A DNA stretch of 64,000 bases, from NCBI GenBank assembly GCA_945869195.1, contig CAMBNV010000007.1, positions 1 to 64,000 on the forward strand. The letters are read 5' to 3'. Of this stretch, positions 12,353-21,063 are shown in pieces (positions within the stretch are counted from its first letter, which is position 1; every line of letters starts with the position of its first letter). A program made the translations under genes and the position numbers. Origin of the DNA: Gemmatimonas phototrophica (GTDB lineage Bacteria > Gemmatimonadota > Gemmatimonadetes > Gemmatimonadales > Gemmatimonadaceae). A model generated the notes under the pieces. It worked only from the letters and a program-made list of their open reading frames with translations, searched no databases and was not told the DNA's origin.

Positions 12353-12396
12353 GCGGCCCGCACCTCCATTGCTCGCCGGGGAAGGTGCAGGCCGCG

Positions 12397-12402
12397 TATA
12401 AT
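12397..12402 (+). promoter_or_regulatory. Consensus -10 (TATAAT) of a leaderless promoter
   Basis: A perfect TATAAT ends 6 bases before the GTG at 12409. Transcription would start about at the start codon itself. With the element at 12347-12352 it forms a compact divergent promoter region of about 70 bases. No -35 match is evident. Confidence 0.6.
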
Positions 12403-12408
12403 CCCGAC

Positions 12409-15400
12409 GTGAGCTCTCTCTCCGTGGTTGCCGAGCGTCCGAGCGTCGCCTCCCGACTGTTGAGGGATGCGTGGTTGGTCTTGGCCTGCCTGGCCGTTCT
12501 TGTCGCGGCCCGTTGGCTCCAGGTGACCAGCGCGGCCTCGGCTGCGACCCTCACGTTTCTCGTACTGTTGCTGGCCGCGACCACCTGGAAGGTCCGTGCC
12601 GTCGCCCGCGGCCGTCGAGTCGCGTTCGTAATTGGATCGATCGCGTTCATCGTCGCGGCAGGCGCGCACCATGTGGTCCTCGCACGCCTCTCGGGTGCTG
12701 GCGAGGTCGAAGTCGCTCGCCGCGCATCGGCGGGGACCGACGCGCTCGCCCGCGCAGTGACCGCCGCGGGCGACGAGTTACAGCGGTCCGCCAGGGCAGC
12801 CTTGCAGCTACCCGCTGACGCCGACGCGGCATTCACGGTCGCACAGGGACTCGTGTCTGGGGTCGACGATCGGGCGCTGGTCGTGGCGGAGTCGGGGCGA
12901 CCATTCGCCTGGGCGGGTCGCCTGGTCGTGCCGGTTGACTCGCTCCCCGGTCCGGTGGGTGTCATCGCGACGCCGTTCTATATCGTCGCTTATGCGATCG
13001 CCATCGAGGGGAGTCGGAGCGCAGTCGCGACGGTGCTGATCCACGCCGAGCCGCCCGCGGATGGCCTCAGTCGACCGCTCGACCTGCGCGTTGCGCGATC
13101 GACCGGGGTTGTGGGCTTCGCGTACGCGGCCGCGGCCGCCTCAGCGCCCGGCTCGGTGGTCCTCTCGATTGGCGGCGAGCCCTTCCTGGCGGCGAGGGCG
13201 TTGGTCGCGGCACCAGAGGCGCTGCGGCACGATGCGCAGGAGCGCGCTGTTGCGCGGGGAGCGCTCCTGCTGGCGTTCCTTGTCCTCCTGCTGCTCGCCA
13301 CGGCGTGGCGACGTGACGCCGGACTCGCGCCGCGTTTCGCGGTCCTGGCCGTTGCCTTCGTCACGCTGCTCCTTGTGCCCTTGAGCGCGCTGTCGAACCG
13401 CTGGGTGGTCTTTGATCCGACCTTTTTCTTCGTCGGTGCCGGCGGTCCCTTCACGGCGAACGCTGGGGCGCTCGCGATCAGCAGCAGTCTTGTCCTGCTC
13501 GGACTCCTCTCGGCGCTGCGCGCTGGCGCACGACCGCGGTCACGGCTGCAGGCGCTCGTCGTTGCGCTCCTCGTCTCCGTCGTGGGGCCGTTCGTCCTCC
13601 GAGAGCTGGCGCGTGGGATTCAGGTGCCGGCGATCGGTGCCTCGACCGGACTCTGGCTCGCCTGGCAGGTCACGCTCTTCCTCTCCGCCGTGACGGTGCT
13701 CCTCCTCGGCGTCACCGCCGGGCGCGCGGCGCTGGGAGGAGCGCGCGACGGTCTGCCATCGTGGGTGGCCCCGGTGGTCGCCGCGCTCGCCGCGCTCTCA
13801 ACGCCGCTGCTGCTCGAGGCGCCGGGACGACTGCCGGCGTGGCATCCCGTGCTCTGGGTATTAGCGATCGGTGCGCTCGCCTTCGCACGCCGTGCGCGTG
13901 CAATGGTGCTCTCCGTGGCGTTCGTCGCGGCCTGCGGGGCGGTCACACTGGTGTGGTTCTCCAGCGTGCGCGAGCGGGTGCAGCTCGCGGCCGCCGACGT
14001 GCAGGGACTCGCGTCGGCTGATCCCACAGCGCTCACGCTGCTCGACCGATTCGGCGCTACCCTCGATCCGGCAACGGGAGCGCGTTCGAGAGTGGAACTC
14101 CTCGCCCGCTATGCCGTGTCCGATCTTGCCGGCGCGGAGCATCCGACTGAGATCGCGACCTGGGCGCCCGATGGAACACCGGTCGCTGAGCTGCGCGTCG
14201 GCCGCGGGCCAGGCGTGACCTCGGGCGTCGACCTGCTCGCGCTCGAGACGGCGCGTTCTCGTCGACTGGTTCTGCGTGAGGCACCCGGAGAGCCCGGGGT
14301 GCATCTGGTGCTGGCGCTGCCGCACCTCGACGGCATGGTGACGACCGTCGTGCTAGCCCCGCGCAGCGCGCTCATCGCGGCCGATGCGTTCGGCGCCTTT
14401 CTCGGCTTTCCGCCGCCACCGTCGCCTGAGCCACCTTATGCGCTCCGGCTTGGTGATCTCCTTCAGCACGATGCGGCCCCGACGCCACGCATCGGTGTCT
14501 GGTCGCGCGACGGTCCGGAACTGCATGGGGACTGGAACCTCTCCGGGGCTGGCGGGACATTGCGACGCGTGCATGGTACCATCGATCTACGCAGTCTCGA
14601 CGCGCTCGTCGTGCGTGGCGTGCTCCTCGTCCTCCTCGACCTCGCTATGCTCGGCGCGGTCTGGGTGTTAATTGTCGGGGCTGATGGCGCACTCTGGCGT
14701 TGGTGGCGGCTGCGTCGGCAGAACGTCGTACGCAGTTTCCGGGTGCGGCTCTCCGTCGCGCTCTTTGCGTCGTTCGTTGTACCGTCGGCGATCTTCGGAC
14801 TCTGGTCGTTCCAGCGCGTACAGAGGGACGACCGCCAGGGGCGCGACCTCCTTGTGCGCGAGACGCTGCGTGGTGTGGCCGTCTCGACCGAATCGGTGCA
14901 ACTCGCCGCCGCCGCCGCTCGCTTCGACACGCCGCTGTTGCTCTATGCCGATGGCCTCTTGGTGGACTCGAGCGATCCTGTGCTGGACGCGCTCGCGCCG
15001 GTGGGACGGCTCCTTCCACCCGGGGTCGCACGAGTCCTGGCCGAAGGAGATGTGCCGACCGCCGGCCGCGCGGAGGACCTCGGTCCCGCGGCAGTGAGAC
15101 TCGGCTACCGACTGGAGACAGAGAACGGCGTGCAGTTTGTACTCGCCGCCCCAGCGCGACTCGACGAGCGGCTCCTGGACCGGCGTCGGAATGACCTGGC
15201 TGTGTTCCTGCTCTTTGCACTCGCACTTGGTGGACTCGCGGCTCTCTGGGCGAGTGGCGCGGTGGCACGGCAGCTCTCGCGCCCGATCCGTGCGCTGCAG
15301 GTGAGCGCGCTCGCGCTTGCACGCGGTGCGCCGGCGCCGGTGCTCGTTGAGGATCCTCCAGTGGAGTTCACGCCGGTCTTCGACGCGTTCCGTACCATGA

Positions 15401-16452
15401 CGTCAGACCTCGCGGAAAGCCGTGCCGCACTCGAGACCGCCGAGCGGCGGCTCGCGGCCACGCTGCGCAACGTCGCGAGTGGGGTCGTGGCTATCGATGA
15501 TCAAGGGCGTGTCACCTTTTCCAATCCGCGCGCGGAATCGATCCTCGGCGGGTCGCTCGAGACCGGCGCCGAGCTTGCACCGATCCTTGGCGACATACTG
15601 GCGCCGCCGCTCTCTGCGTTTCAGGACGCCGAGGACGACGAGGCGGGGTTTGAGGTAGAGCGCGAGGGCCGGCGACTGCAGGTTCGCCTCGCCCGCCTCG
15701 CCCGCGGCTCGCGGCGCGCGGTCATCACCCTCGACGACGTGACCGATGTCGCGCGCGCCGAGCGTGTGCTCGCCTGGGGGGAAATGGCGCGCCAGGTCGC
15801 ACACGAGATCAAAAACCCACTCACCCCGATCCGGCTGGGCATGCAACACCTGCGACGCGCACATCGGGACGGTCGCGTTGACTTTGACCAGGTGCTCGAC
15901 GAGAACACCACGCGCGTACTCGCCGAGATCGACCGTCTCGATGAGATCGCGCGCGCCTTCAGTCGCTATGGCACCGGCCCAGTGGGCGCCGAACCCCCCG
16001 TCCCGACCGATGTTGCGCAGGTTGCACGGGATGTGCTCGAACTCGAACGGATGGGTGCGGAAAGCATTGCCTGGAATGCCGTGATCCCCGAGACGCCGCT
16101 GCTCGCAGCCGGCCGCGATCGGGAGCTGCGTGAGGTGTTGCTCAACCTGTTAGAGAATGCGCGGCTCGCGCGTGCGCACCGGATCACACTTACGGTCCAG
16201 GCGCTGCCTGACGGCGGCGCCCTGCTCCGTGTTGAGGACGACGGCGACGGGATCCCGGCGCACCTGCTCGATCGGATCTTCGAGCCGAGATTTTCCACGC
16301 GGACCAGCGGCAGCGGGCTCGGGCTCGCGATCAGTCGTCGACTCATCGACGGGTGGGGGGGCTCGATCGCAGCGGAGAGCACCCCAGGACAGGGCACCGT
16401 GCTGCGCGTGCGGCTGGCTCCCGCCAGCCCCCGCGGAGTAACTTCCGAGTAG
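12409..16452 (+). CDS. Giant multi-membrane-pass histidine kinase, NtrY-like
   Basis: This 1347-residue sensor kinase has roughly 14 membrane helices. Three come at the start, then an extracytoplasmic domain, a block of about eight helices, a second outside domain, two more helices, a third outside domain and a last helix leading into HAMP. A PAS-like domain follows (VASGVVAIDDQGRVTFSNPRAE). The kinase core is intact: H-box with His1132 in VAHEIKNPLTPIR, N-box (LLNLLENARLA), DDGDGIP and GSGLGLAI. The HEIKNPLTPI motif and architecture are NtrY-like. GTG 12409 is preferred over ATG 12385 because TATAAT lies 6 bases before it. No response regulator is adjacent; the NtrX-like protein at 25426 is the obvious candidate partner. 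Its stop codon directly abuts the kinase gene downstream. Confidence 0.88.
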   Translation: MSSLSVVAERPSVASRLLRDAWLVLACLAVLVAARWLQVTSAASAATLTFLVLLLAATTWKVRAVARGRRVAFVIGSIAFIVAAGAHHVVLARLSGAGEVEVARRASAGTDALARAVTAAGDELQRSARAALQLPADADAAFTVAQGLVSGVDDRALVVAESGRPFAWAGRLVVPVDSLPGPVGVIATPFYIVAYAIAIEGSRSAVATVLIHAEPPADGLSRPLDLRVARSTGVVGFAYAAAAASAPGSVVLSIGGEPFLAARALVAAPEALRHDAQERAVARGALLLAFLVLLLLATAWRRDAGLAPRFAVLAVAFVTLLLVPLSALSNRWVVFDPTFFFVGAGGPFTANAGALAISSSLVLLGLLSALRAGARPRSRLQALVVALLVSVVGPFVLRELARGIQVPAIGASTGLWLAWQVTLFLSAVTVLLLGVTAGRAALGGARDGLPSWVAPVVAALAALSTPLLLEAPGRLPAWHPVLWVLAIGALAFARRARAMVLSVAFVAACGAVTLVWFSSVRERVQLAAADVQGLASADPTALTLLDRFGATLDPATGARSRVELLARYAVSDLAGAEHPTEIATWAPDGTPVAELRVGRGPGVTSGVDLLALETARSRRLVLREAPGEPGVHLVLALPHLDGMVTTVVLAPRSALIAADAFGAFLGFPPPPSPEPPYALRLGDLLQHDAAPTPRIGVWSRDGPELHGDWNLSGAGGTLRRVHGTIDLRSLDALVVRGVLLVLLDLAMLGAVWVLIVGADGALWRWWRLRRQNVVRSFRVRLSVALFASFVVPSAIFGLWSFQRVQRDDRQGRDLLVRETLRGVAVSTESVQLAAAAARFDTPLLLYADGLLVDSSDPVLDALAPVGRLLPPGVARVLAEGDVPTAGRAEDLGPAAVRLGYRLETENGVQFVLAAPARLDERLLDRRRNDLAVFLLFALALGGLAALWASGAVARQLSRPIRALQVSALALARGAPAPVLVEDPPVEFTPVFDAFRTMTSDLAESRAALETAERRLAATLRNVASGVVAIDDQGRVTFSNPRAESILGGSLETGAELAPILGDILAPPLSAFQDAEDDEAGFEVEREGRRLQVRLARLARGSRRAVITLDDVTDVARAERVLAWGEMARQVAHEIKNPLTPIRLGMQHLRRAHRDGRVDFDQVLDENTTRVLAEIDRLDEIARAFSRYGTGPVGAEPPVPTDVAQVARDVLELERMGAESIAWNAVIPETPLLAAGRDRELREVLLNLLENARLARAHRITLTVQALPDGGALLRVEDDGDGIPAHLLDRIFEPRFSTRTSGSGLGLAISRRLIDGWGGSIAAESTPGQGTVLRVRLAPASPRGVTSE

Positions 16453-18234
16453 ATGCACAACCCAGAACTCAGCGGCCCGGGTCGCCCGACGACCGGCATC
16501 CCATCCCACCTCGACGGATGGGTGTTACCACCCGACTGGCGCTGGGGAAGCAGCGGCGTCTACACGCCCTACCGTCATGCGCAGGAGATTCAGGACGCGC
16601 TCGGGCGCCCGCTCGCCCTCGTGACCGCGCCTGATCCCGCGCACCACGCCTGGCTCTTTTGCGAAGCCCGAGAACTCGCGCATCGCAGCCACCCGATGAT
16701 ACCGACCACCTACCACTTCTGGCAGCAGCATCTTGCGAGTCCCCGCGGTCCAGGCTACCTGCGTCGCTGGATCACCGGCGAGACGATCGGCGAGCGCCTC
16801 CGCCGCAGTGGCGCCGACACCGTGCCGTTTGCGCTGCGGCTGATTCGATCGATTGGTTCGTCGCTGGCGTATCTGCACGACTCGGGGAGCGCGCACGGCG
16901 CGGTCGCGCCCGACACCATCCACTTCACGCCGAGCGGCCGCGCCTGGATGCTCGGATGGCAGTGGGCGGTGCCGCGCGACGAGATCCCTACGGGCGTCGC
17001 TCCCGACGCGCGGTGGACGCCGCAGGCGCCGGAATGGAATGGCAGTTGGGTGCCGTCACAGGCGTCGGACCAGTGGCAGCTCGGCGCCATCGCCTACACG
17101 CTGCTCACGGGAGAGGTGCCGAGGGGGACGTCGTTGCCGCCGCTGCGGCTCGCGAGACCAGACTGTCCCGAGGCGGTGGCCGATCTCGTCGATCGGATGC
17201 TCTCCCCATCGCCGACCGATCGGTTCGCGAGCCTCGCCGGAATGCTCCGCCACATCGAGCGCATCTCGGGAGCTCCAGCGCTCGCCTTCGTGGGGACCGA
17301 GCGGGCGAGCGGCGAACATTCGGCACTCTCCCAGGAGGACCGGCTCCGCTCGGCCACGGGCGATGACTATGAAGTCCTCGCGCCCTTGGGCTCCGGCTCG
17401 TACGGTTCGGTCTGGCGCGTGCGCGACCTCTCCCTCCAACGCGAGGTCGCGCTCAAGATGCTCCACCCCACGGTCGCGCTCAACGCGACGGCGGTCGGCC
17501 GCTTCCAGCGCGAGGCGCAGCTCGCGGCGCAGCTCCAACATCCGGCGATTGTCCCGATCTTCGCCTGGGATTCGAAGGGCGACGTGAACTGGTACATCAT
17601 GGAGCTAGAGGAGGAAGGCTCCGTCGCGGATCTCGTCAAGCGCGCGGGGCCGTTGGCGTTCGCGGAGATCGCGCCACAGGTGGATTCGGTGCTCGACGGA
17701 CTCGCCATGGCGCATGCGCACGGGATTATTCATCGCGACCTCAAGCCCGAGAATATTCTCATCGACCGGTACCGCCGTTGGCGGATCGCCGACTTCGGTA
17801 TTGCGCACGCGATGGGCGCGCGCGCCGCCGGATCGTCGGGCACGCCTGCCTTCGCGTCACCGGAGCAGCTGCTCGGGGAGTTGCAGGGACCGACGACCGA
17901 TCTCTTCGCCGTCAGTGCTATCGTCTACTTCGCACTCACGGGCCGCGCACCATTCGACGGAGCCGACGGGCGTACGATTCTCGCTGCGCAGCTCGCGGGG
18001 CGCGTCGATCTCGGCGCGTTTGAGGAGCCACTCGGGGAGTGGCTGCGTCGCGCGCTGGCCGCCGATCCCTCGGCGCGATTTGCCGACGCGGAGACCATGC
18101 GCGCATCGTGGCGACAGGTGGTGCGGCGGGCGTCACGTGCGGAGCGCCGTCACCGCACTCTGCTCGGCCGCCTGAGACAGCTGCTGAGTGGCTGGCGGGG
18201 CGGCGTATCGGATTCAAAGCGGCCGAATCACTAG
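16453..18234 (+). CDS. Tandem pseudokinase-kinase Ser/Thr protein kinase
   Basis: This 593-residue protein has two eukaryotic-type kinase folds and no membrane helix. Residues about 32-270 are a degenerate copy. The catalytic loop reads HGAVAPDTI (148-156) instead of HRDLKPEN, GWQWA (168-172) stands where DFG should be, and the VAIK lysine is absent (LALVTA). APEW and the following SDQWQLGAIAYTLLTGEVP are still recognisable. Residues about 306-555 are an intact kinase: glycine loop GSGSYGSV, Lys335, Glu354, HRDLKPEN (427-434), DFG (447-449) and SPE. The ATG immediately follows the histidine kinase stop codon, so the two are probably co-transcribed and coupled, although TAACTT 8 bases upstream could be an internal start. 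The pseudokinase may regulate the active domain, as JH2 does in JAK kinases; that is inference. Confidence 0.9.
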   Translation: MHNPELSGPGRPTTGIPSHLDGWVLPPDWRWGSSGVYTPYRHAQEIQDALGRPLALVTAPDPAHHAWLFCEARELAHRSHPMIPTTYHFWQQHLASPRGPGYLRRWITGETIGERLRRSGADTVPFALRLIRSIGSSLAYLHDSGSAHGAVAPDTIHFTPSGRAWMLGWQWAVPRDEIPTGVAPDARWTPQAPEWNGSWVPSQASDQWQLGAIAYTLLTGEVPRGTSLPPLRLARPDCPEAVADLVDRMLSPSPTDRFASLAGMLRHIERISGAPALAFVGTERASGEHSALSQEDRLRSATGDDYEVLAPLGSGSYGSVWRVRDLSLQREVALKMLHPTVALNATAVGRFQREAQLAAQLQHPAIVPIFAWDSKGDVNWYIMELEEEGSVADLVKRAGPLAFAEIAPQVDSVLDGLAMAHAHGIIHRDLKPENILIDRYRRWRIADFGIAHAMGARAAGSSGTPAFASPEQLLGELQGPTTDLFAVSAIVYFALTGRAPFDGADGRTILAAQLAGRVDLGAFEEPLGEWLRRALAADPSARFADAETMRASWRQVVRRASRAERRHRTLLGRLRQLLSGWRGGVSDSKRPNH

Positions 18235-18264: not shown

Positions 18265-20415
18265 ATGTCACTGACTGTGCGCACGACTCTCGTCTGGTTC
18301 CTCGGCGTCTCGCTACTGGGACGGCCCCTTGGCGCGCAGGCCCGGCCGGACACGACACGCCACGATAGCACCTCCGCCCGGCCGCTCGGGGTCGTACGCG
18401 TCGATGCAGTCCGTACCACGGAGAGTGCCGATCGGCTCCCGTGGGCCGTGAGTACGCTCGACGGAGCGGCGCTGCGACGGGGCCAGGCCACACTCGGCCT
18501 AGACGAAGCCGTCGCGAGTCTGCCGGGTGTCGTCGTGTCCAATCGCTACAACTACGCCCTCGATCAGCGGCTCAGCATCCGCGGCGCGGGGAGCCGTGCC
18601 AACTTCGGTCTGCGCGGAGTGAAAGTGCTGCTCGACGGCATCCCGCAGTCATTGCCGGACGGGCAGAGCCAACTGACCAACGTCGATCTCGCGTCGATTG
18701 CTCGCGTCGAGGTGCTGCGCGGCGCCGCCTCGTCACTCCACGGCAATGGATCGGGTGGCGTCCTCTCCTTTACGACTGACCTTGCCGCGCCCGACCGGCT
18801 GCGTGCAGGCGTGCGCGCGACGTCGGGGTCGTTCGGACTGCGCAAGCTTCAACTCCTCACGAGCGGCCGCACCGGCCCACTCGTGGGCGCGGTCTCAGCG
18901 TCGCGCACCACGGTCGACGGCTTCCGACAGTACAGCGCGGCGGACCTGCGACAGTTGGGCGGTGCGATCGATCAGGCGCTAAACGATCGCGTGACGCTGT
19001 CGTGGCGTGCCGGTGTGGCCGAGACGCCGCTCGCGCTCAATCCGGGCGCGCTCACAGCGGCAGAGTATGCGCTCAACCCCGACACCGCCGCGCTGAACAA
19101 CACCCGACGCGGTGCGCAGCGCGCCGTGTCACAGCGCTACGCCTCGTTTCGCGCGCATCGGGACGATGGCCCCCTCACGTGGAGCGCGAGCGTCTTCGGA
19201 CAGCGGCGCTTCATCGACAACCCACTCGCGACGGCGCCGCCCGCACCCGCAGGCGCGACGAATGGCGTGCGGAACACCATTGACCGGCGCGTGACGGGCC
19301 TCAGGCTCGACGCGTCACGCCTGATCGACCGAGCGTGGGATCCACGCCTCTCGCTGGGTCTCGACGTCCAGCGGTCGCACGACGTGCGGCGCAACGAGCG
19401 TACGACCGGGGGCCTGATTGTCGCGCCGACCGATACGACCTTCCTGTTCCAGGGCGAGACCGTGGTGAGTGTCGGGCCCTCGGCGCAGCTGCAGCTCTCG
19501 CCGTCGCCGAACGTCGCACTGAGCGTGGGCGCGCGGTGGGATCGCCTCTCGTTCGGCGTCGAGGACCACTTCCCCGGCGACGGAGATGACGACAGCGGCG
19601 TGCGGGTGATGACCGCAGCGAGTGGTCATGCGGGAGCGGTCTGGCTGGTCGCGACCGCGTTCAGTCCGTATGTGAACGTCGGCACCGCATTTGAGACGCC
19701 AACCACGACCGAGCTCAACTCGCGCGAGGACGGACTCGGCGGCTTCAACGACGAGCTCGGTCCGCAACGCATCGTCTCGGCGGAGGTTGGCGTGCGCGGC
19801 CGTTTCGGCCCGCGGCTTTCCTACGAGGTCGCGTACTTCGATTCGCGCGCGCGTGATGCGATTGTGCAGTACTTGGAGTCCGCCGGTCGCGCCTATTTCC
19901 GCAACGCTGGTCGCACGCGGAGCCATGGTCTCGAACTCGGCGTTGCCGCGGTGGTCACGCCCTGGCTCACCATGCGCGGCGCCTACACGGGCGGCGACCA
20001 TCGTTTCGTCGAGTATCGCATCCCCTCGGGGTCGCTCCCGGTGCCCGCCCGCGACACCCTCGACGGCAACAGGCTCGCGGGCATTCCGGCGTACAGTTGG
20101 CGTGTTGCTCTGCAGATCGCAGCGGGGGGGATCATCGTCGACACCGAACGCTCGATGCAGGGGGCGTCGTGGGGCAACGACGCGAACACAGTGCGAGTGG
20201 GGGATTGGGGGCGCGGTCAGGTGAATGTCCGCGCGTCGTGGCGCGGCGACCTGATCGGTCACATCGTCGAGCCATTCGTCGCGCTCCAGAACGCGCTCAA
20301 CGAGCGCTATTTCGGAGCGGTGACCCTCAACGGATTCGGCGGCCGTGTATTCGAACCGGCGCCTGGACGCAACTGGTATGCGGGTGTCGAAATCAGCCTT
20401 CCCATCATTCGGTAA
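18265..20415 (+). CDS. TonB-dependent outer membrane receptor
   Basis: This 716-residue protein has a signal peptide ending near LGAQA, a plug domain and a 22-strand-type barrel. The plug is clear: an early region with VVRVDAVRTTES, then LDEAVASLPGVVVSNRYNYALDQRLSIRGAG, GVKVLLDGIPQSLPDG and IARVEVLRGAASSLHGNGSGGV. The C-terminal half has alternating barrel strands with Ser/Arg/Thr-rich loops and ends in a hydrophobic beta strand. It most resembles FecA-like siderophore or metal-complex receptors, but the ligand cannot be told. No TonB/ExbBD or periplasmic binding genes lie in the window. It follows the tandem kinase by 30 bases but seems to have its own promoter. Confidence 0.9.
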   Translation: MSLTVRTTLVWFLGVSLLGRPLGAQARPDTTRHDSTSARPLGVVRVDAVRTTESADRLPWAVSTLDGAALRRGQATLGLDEAVASLPGVVVSNRYNYALDQRLSIRGAGSRANFGLRGVKVLLDGIPQSLPDGQSQLTNVDLASIARVEVLRGAASSLHGNGSGGVLSFTTDLAAPDRLRAGVRATSGSFGLRKLQLLTSGRTGPLVGAVSASRTTVDGFRQYSAADLRQLGGAIDQALNDRVTLSWRAGVAETPLALNPGALTAAEYALNPDTAALNNTRRGAQRAVSQRYASFRAHRDDGPLTWSASVFGQRRFIDNPLATAPPAPAGATNGVRNTIDRRVTGLRLDASRLIDRAWDPRLSLGLDVQRSHDVRRNERTTGGLIVAPTDTTFLFQGETVVSVGPSAQLQLSPSPNVALSVGARWDRLSFGVEDHFPGDGDDDSGVRVMTAASGHAGAVWLVATAFSPYVNVGTAFETPTTTELNSREDGLGGFNDELGPQRIVSAEVGVRGRFGPRLSYEVAYFDSRARDAIVQYLESAGRAYFRNAGRTRSHGLELGVAAVVTPWLTMRGAYTGGDHRFVEYRIPSGSLPVPARDTLDGNRLAGIPAYSWRVALQIAAGGIIVDTERSMQGASWGNDANTVRVGDWGRGQVNVRASWRGDLIGHIVEPFVALQNALNERYFGAVTLNGFGGRVFEPAPGRNWYAGVEISLPIIR

Positions 20416-20469: not shown

Positions 20470-21063
20470 ATGACCAAGCCACTCGCATTCCAAGTCCTCG
20501 ACTCCCCCATTTCAGGGAGGGGCGCCTTCGCCATTCGCGCCATCAAAAAGGGTGAACGCCTCGTCGAATACACGGGGGAGCGGATTCCTCACCCCGTCGC
20601 CGACGAACGGTACGATGACGACGCGATGGACGAGCACCACACCTTCCTGTTCACGGTCTCCAGTCGCACCGTGCTCGACGCGTCGCGTGGCGGCAACGAG
20701 GCACGCTTCATCAACCACTCGTGCGCGCCCAACTGCGAGTCAGAGATCGAGAAGGGCCGCGTCTACATCTTCGCGCTGCGCGATATCAAGGACGGCGAGG
20801 AGTTGCACTACGACTATGCCTACGAGCGCAGTGGAGAAGAGACGGAGAGGGAAGAAGCGCAGTACCGGTGCCGCTGCGGCACCAAGATCTGCCGCGGTTC
20901 GATCATGGAGCCCAGGGCCGACTACGAGAAGCGGGTGCGCACGAAGAAGCGGAAGCTGACGCTCGCGCGGCGCGAGCGCGACAAAGCGAAGGACCTCTAC
21001 GCCTTGAGCCACGCCACGCGGCGATCGGTGACCAAGGCGAAGAAGAAGGCGACTGGGCGGTAG
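20470..21063 (+). CDS. Bacterial SET-domain protein lysine methyltransferase
   Basis: This 197-residue cytoplasmic protein is a near-complete SET domain. It has the N-terminal SGRGAFAIRAIKKGE, the cofactor and knot motif RFINHSCAPNC (79-89), and the catalytic-tyrosine region ELHYDYAYE (111-119). A post-SET zinc motif follows with Cys134, Cys136 and Cys141, completed by Cys85 or Cys89 in known structures. The last 40 residues are rich in Lys and Arg and may bind nucleic acid or a substrate protein. The family transfers methyl groups from S-adenosylmethionine to lysines. Bacterial targets are mostly unknown. No histone-like gene is nearby. It has its own putative leaderless start (TAGATT 8 bases upstream). 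Confidence 0.9.
   Translation: MTKPLAFQVLDSPISGRGAFAIRAIKKGERLVEYTGERIPHPVADERYDDDAMDEHHTFLFTVSSRTVLDASRGGNEARFINHSCAPNCESEIEKGRVYIFALRDIKDGEELHYDYAYERSGEETEREEAQYRCRCGTKICRGSIMEPRADYEKRVRTKKRKLTLARRERDKAKDLYALSHATRRSVTKAKKKATGR

Follow-up and report, generated by a model that had tools for sequence, protein, structure and literature searches.

A conserved pseudokinase–kinase pair in the Gemmatimonadales, with possible regulation in cis

The window, the whole 64,000-nucleotide stretch of DNA analysed here, belongs to a 2.33-Mb Gemmatimonadota MAG of the family Gemmatimonadaceae. On its forward strand lies a gene for a 593-residue protein with two kinase domains in tandem, a first (PK1) that has lost its catalytic residues and a second (K2) that is complete. 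Its start ATG begins at the first base past the TAG of the preceding gene, which encodes a sensor histidine kinase. The closest named records to the protein are Gemmatimonadota/Gemmatimonadaceae MAGs, with identities of at most 84% across its full length. The features of the locus are the following.

12385..16452, forward strand: long upstream sensor histidine kinase gene (HisKA and HATPase_c, weak PAS and HAMP matches), abutting the pseudokinase–kinase gene
16453..18234, forward strand: pseudokinase–kinase ORF, 593 aa, PK1 then K2
16525..17268, forward strand: PK1 pseudokinase domain, residues about 25–272, all three catalytic residues lost, as is the glycine loop
16621..16623, forward strand: V57, the beta3-Lys position, an invariant Val in 24 Gemmatimonadaceae orthologues
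16900..16902, forward strand: A150, the HRD-Asp position (HGAVAPDT)
16954..16956, forward strand: G168, the DFG-Asp position (MLGWQW)
17269..17367, forward strand: linker, residues 273–305, with the conserved end E295-x-x-L-R-x-x-x-G-D-D
17368..18117, forward strand: K2, complete Ser/Thr kinase domain, residues about 306–555 (Pfam PF00069, E=4.8e-45)
18118..18231, forward strand: C-terminal tail, basic and amphipathic, a possible membrane-binding helix

A Pfam scan of the 593-residue protein returned kinase matches only, with no FERM, SH2 or NERD domain. K2 scores 154.4 bits against PF00069 (gathering cut-off 31.7), and its catalytic set of K335, E354, D429, N434, D447 and E471 is complete, as it is in 50/50 orthologous domains, so that the second kinase is intact as an earlier, sequence-only reading of this DNA had proposed. 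PK1 reaches a sub-threshold 19.6 bits with the same model, and Pfam alone would therefore miss it. Its fold emerges from more sensitive comparisons. Searched with phmmer against the PDB, the single PK1 sequence has PknA as its best match (E=9.1e-12), while a 24-sequence profile finds PknA at E=4.6e-18 and PknB at about 7e-15. Profile-profile alignment of PK1 with K2 (hhalign) gives a probability of 98.5% and E=3.7e-15 over 218 columns, and Foldseek ranks PknB first for the PK1 model (E=4.2e-7, TM 0.46–0.50, with a poor N-lobe in the model). The best solved relatives of both domains are PknA/PknB-type Ser/Thr kinases, a group whose members have one catalytic domain and usually a transmembrane segment. 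The proposal of two kinase folds in tandem is thereby upheld, and sequence, profile and Foldseek comparisons all speak against a first half of some other fold.

Residue equivalences in PK1 were taken from the hhalign alignment to K2. The beta3 Lys is replaced by V57 (Thr/Ser next), the HRD Asp by A150 and the DFG Asp by G168 (in LGWQW), precisely the three marks suspected to be missing. The residues that PK1 retains are the alphaC Glu (E71), the APE Glu (E194), the F-helix Asp (D206) and the C-lobe Arg (R257), in agreement with the expectation that APE and the following helix motif had been kept; the alphaC Glu and APE would be kept for stability alone too. Across 34 Gemmatimonadaceae PK1 domains, the HRD-Asp position holds Ala in 28, Gly in 4, Cys in 1 and Ser in 1, and the DFG-Asp position, which a Trp adjoins in this family, holds Gly in 32, Asp in 1 and Met in 1; these counts and the 50/50 of K2 are of distinct reading frames rather than independent species, some loci being one species reached by two routes. 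The single domain with Asp at the DFG position lacks the remaining catalytic residues, as does one further orthologue, L082 (outside the 34), which reads HGD. From these losses we infer that PK1 is catalytically inactive, and very likely does not bind ATP.

AlphaFold models of the full-length protein and of PK1 alone, built on 11 close sequences, have good C-lobes and poor N-lobes in both domains (mean pLDDT 60.9 and 54.2). The N-lobe failure reflects the shallow alignment, because the plainly normal K2 is also modelled badly there. No PK1–K2 interface is visible in these models. One possible contact comes from the alignments. Position D305 of K2 (17365–17367) is acidic in 50/50 orthologues, and Arg stands there in 31/61 other kinases; its presumed partner position in PK1, H88 (16714–16716), is invariant in Gemmatimonadaceae orthologues. 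If these positions are equivalent to PknB R10/D76/L33, as we take them to be, they might form a charge-swapped version of the PknB-type back-to-back contact. This is a mere lead, since paralogues in one genus have V in place of H88 and no model depicts the contact.

The first domain is broadly retained. A PK1 orthologue is present in 109/119 sampled Gemmatimonadaceae genomes of the phylum sample, a count made from the listing that leaves out one more genome with a weak match (2.3e-23); genus g7 repeatedly lacks one. Identity averaged over alignment columns is 65% in PK1 and 71% in K2. Pairwise dN/dS against the window protein is about 0.13–0.25 for PK1 and 0.09–0.19 for K2 in the same comparisons, so that purifying selection on PK1 is nearly as strong as on K2. 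Retention in 109 genomes and purifying selection together rule out chance, or decay in one genome, as the source of the missing residues. A tree of 97 kinase domains puts the PK1 sequences in one clade and the K2 sequences in another, both with support 100 and neither nested within other Gemmatimonadaceae kinases, which indicates that the pair is old and was inherited together. A recent duplication of K2 as the source of PK1 is unsupported, since the PK1 clade is distinct and its branch long. In genus g40, two loci (L122 and L123) encode a second, diverged copy of the entire pair in ORFs of ~700 aa, with a first domain that is dead too.

Searches with the PK1 profile ended at the family border (E<=1e-30), which seemed to place the origin of the pair within the Gemmatimonadaceae. 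That view was abandoned, because K2 searches recovered orthologous proteins in two sister families of the same order (f2 and f3), with K2 domains 41–48% identical (E 1e-68 to 1e-81) and a first domain sharing the ORF with the intact K2. These first domains show a different state of loss: the beta3 position is Arg in 30/30, the HRD Asp has become Arg in 29/30 and Ala once (xRR), and DFG reads DLR or DVR with the Asp kept in 30/30. A profile of them matches strongly in most f2/f3 genomes; for the remaining families of the class and phylum, its matches stay at the generic kinase level. The PK1–K2 pair is thus kept by most of the Gemmatimonadales, and no catalytically complete first domain, which would have spoken against the pseudokinase reading, occurs among the Gemmatimonadaceae or sister-family orthologues sampled. 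In the HGAVAPDTI-type loop, suggested earlier as a mark of homologues, the Ala prevails in the Gemmatimonadaceae, with the Gly, Cys and Ser variants counted above, and the sister families have xRR at HRD. As these families carry the same pair with a dead first domain, the order probably inherited the dead–live pair from its common ancestor. The simplest reading of these sequences is a single origin of the pair, at the base of the order or earlier, and loss of further residues from PK1 in the Gemmatimonadaceae. The PK1–K2 pair is genuine, ancient and under selection, and standard domain annotation overlooks it.

The junction between the domains is conserved as well. E295, L298, R299, A301, G303, D304 and Y306 are at least 90% conserved in Gemmatimonadaceae and f2/f3, while the linker stretch N-terminal of E295 varies across the order. 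The conserved segment, E295–D305, sits where PK1 meets K2.

The upstream histidine kinase has AtoS and similar models as its top matches, all below cut-off; we describe it as NtrY-like. Its gene lies directly upstream and co-directional at 22/28 Gemmatimonadaceae loci (the window not counted), is convergent and about 1.4 kb downstream at 5/28, and is some 7 kb off at 1/28. The linkage is absent at the f2/f3 loci examined. It is therefore not essential to the pseudokinase–kinase protein, and supports a shared pathway within the Gemmatimonadaceae only. At six f2/f3 loci (L215–L217, L222, L233 and L234), queC-like, queE-like and HD-domain-like neighbours (named by eye) recur, as does a gene for a ~450-aa protein just 5' of the pseudokinase–kinase gene. 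Downstream in the window, a TonB-dependent receptor gene (18265–20415; best model PqqU-like, 281 bits, far below cut-off) recurs beside the pseudokinase–kinase gene in genera g1 and g20 but not as a rule. A SET-domain protein gene conserved in the genus adjoins the cluster (20470–21063); the SET domain, a lysine-methyltransferase fold, is more familiar from eukaryotes.

A basic amphipathic C-terminal tail recurs order-wide. Its last 24 residues have a mean net charge of +4.9, and amphipathicity in 28 hand-chosen tails exceeds that of shuffles (mean z 1.07, SE 0.19). This charge and amphipathicity suggest that the tail may contact the membrane, and peripheral membrane binding is possible. The protein had been called soluble; that no transmembrane segment is evident by eye agrees with this, and the tail qualifies it. 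At five loci (L014, L077, L126, L167 and L174, in G001, G035, G262, G340 and G315), no stop codon ends the pseudokinase–kinase ORF, which continues in frame into the downstream TonB-dependent receptor, so that the basic tail and the receptor signal peptide merge. This is probably no sequencing error, as it is found in two genera; the product might be a polyprotein that signal peptidase cleaves, or there might be an internal start.

Placing a dead kinase domain ahead of a live one is known from eukaryotes, and the likeness to JAK kinases had been raised for this protein. In the JAKs, the JH2 pseudokinase precedes the JH1 kinase and can inhibit it. They are tyrosine kinases with FERM and SH2 domains, however, whereas K2 is a PknB-like Ser/Thr kinase accompanied by no other Pfam domain. 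Kinship to JAK stops at the kinase fold; JAK-like regulation of K2 by PK1 would be a reasonable analogy and only that. In GCN2, the pseudokinase (YKD) likewise stands N-terminal of a Ser/Thr kinase, which it contacts and activates (PMC4014428), but GCN2 has an HisRS-like tRNA sensor and further domains that the 593-residue protein lacks.

Within bacteria, the closest parallel is PglW of type-2 BREX, which, like a subset of DndF, has a pseudokinase immediately before an active kinase in one protein (PMC12839542). The ATP-binding Lys of PglW is in the second domain only, and the protein has autokinase activity (PMC4365076). The NCBIfam PglW model is co-linear with both PK1 and K2. Nevertheless, PglW is 1400–1600 aa long and includes a NERD nuclease and a wHTH/iSTAND half that are missing here; the Gemmatimonadaceae protein scores 115.2 bits with the PglW model (NF033442) against a cut-off of 990, and its gene is chromosomal and nearly universal in the family. 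No BREX genes were noticed adjoining it. With the model for MAD6, the MADS defence kinase (NF047741), it scores 184.4 bits, below the cut-off of 460, and it is not assigned to MAD6, on which the literature searched held no paper.

Bacterial pseudokinases have been defined as kinase folds without one or more of the beta3 Lys, HRD Asp and DFG Asp (PMC12599244), and PK1, a kinase fold without any of the three, fits this definition. The ActPs1–3, GLW, CP1, DYD and DLHK families (PMC12599244) are also kinase folds without catalytic residues, and ActPs3/MviN resembles PK1 in having lost all three. PK1 differs from all of them in its motifs HGA and LGW. The GLW pseudokinases have GLW in place of HRD and a transmembrane segment after the domain, and PK1, with HGA, is not one of them. 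ActPs3 (MviN-type) has a deleted activation loop and a C-terminal transmembrane segment; the PK1 alignment has no large deletion from the DFG position to APE, and no transmembrane segment is apparent by eye. A word search of PMC12599244 for tandem or fused forms gave no match, and none of its pseudokinase families was seen there joined to an active kinase. Unrelated tandem kinases whose first domain lacks the Lys and HRD Asp turned up at L241:3573-4925 and L242:1524-3098 (Myxococcales and Proteobacteria records), with second domains intact or nearly so; other phyla were sampled only via genomes of loci reached in the searches. The dead–live layout shared by PglW, the DndF subset, L241 and L242 recurs in bacteria. 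No literature was found on the PK1–K2 family in Gemmatimonadota or on a stand-alone form. The architecture is familiar from phage-defence proteins, PglW among them, and PK1–K2 is a new, conserved stand-alone variant of it.

Retention of the pair in most of the Gemmatimonadales suggests a role for the dead half in controlling or positioning the live one. We favor, with a probability of roughly 0.6, a reading of these sequences in which PK1 is a non-catalytic fold, very likely not binding ATP, that would exert its effect on K2 in cis, most likely by regulating K2 activity allosterically. The sign of this effect could be either inhibitory, as for JAK JH2, or stimulatory, as for GCN2, with phosphorylation presumably carried out by K2. 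The Gemmatimonadaceae protein would most likely belong to the pathway of the adjoining upstream sensor histidine kinase, and the basic C-terminal helix perhaps holds it at the membrane. PK1 could instead be purely a scaffold or substrate-docking module with no allosteric effect on K2, an idea that deserves attention although we consider it unlikely. Scaffolding is what several bacterial pseudokinases with an established role do; for instance, the MviN pseudokinase recruits FhaA, and EssB/YukC act in type VII secretion (PMC12599244). PK1 likewise has strongly conserved motifs missing in other kinases, LPPxWRWG and GPGYLRRW, which could serve docking, but in all orthologues it is covalently joined to one particular K2, and this fusion, like the conserved junction beside K2, points to K2 as the partner.

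Cis-regulation of K2 can also be extended into a bolder picture, doubtful when taken as a whole, in which an order-wide switch lets PK1 gate K2 in answer to the neighbouring membrane sensor histidine kinase; two-component and Ser/Thr signalling would then be joined via a membrane-held pseudokinase, and ligand binding would have been lost stepwise between sister families. Improbable, and most plausible in those sister families, is that PK1 still binds a ligand or has acquired a new enzymatic function (like SelO or SidJ), for example as a nucleotide sensor. Pseudokinases that bind ATP with Lys changed to Arg are known (PMC12599244), and the beta3 Arg and DFG-position Asp of f2/f3 are invariant, but the Gemmatimonadaceae domain has neither the Lys nor the two Asp residues, and a Trp beside the DFG position. 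That PK1 is a functionless, decaying leftover of a duplication hardly merits belief, as the lost residues are all that speaks for it, against purifying selection, presence in nearly all of the family's genomes and a dead state retained order-wide.

Dead–live tandem kinases may be frequent in bacteria and poorly annotated there; bacterial pseudokinases are largely unstudied. A compact, stand-alone, order-wide pair with two decay states, one with the beta3 Arg and DLR in the sister families and one with all three residues lost in the Gemmatimonadaceae, is a natural series in which to test how a dead kinase comes to control a live one, free of the further domains that PglW, JAK and GCN2 have.
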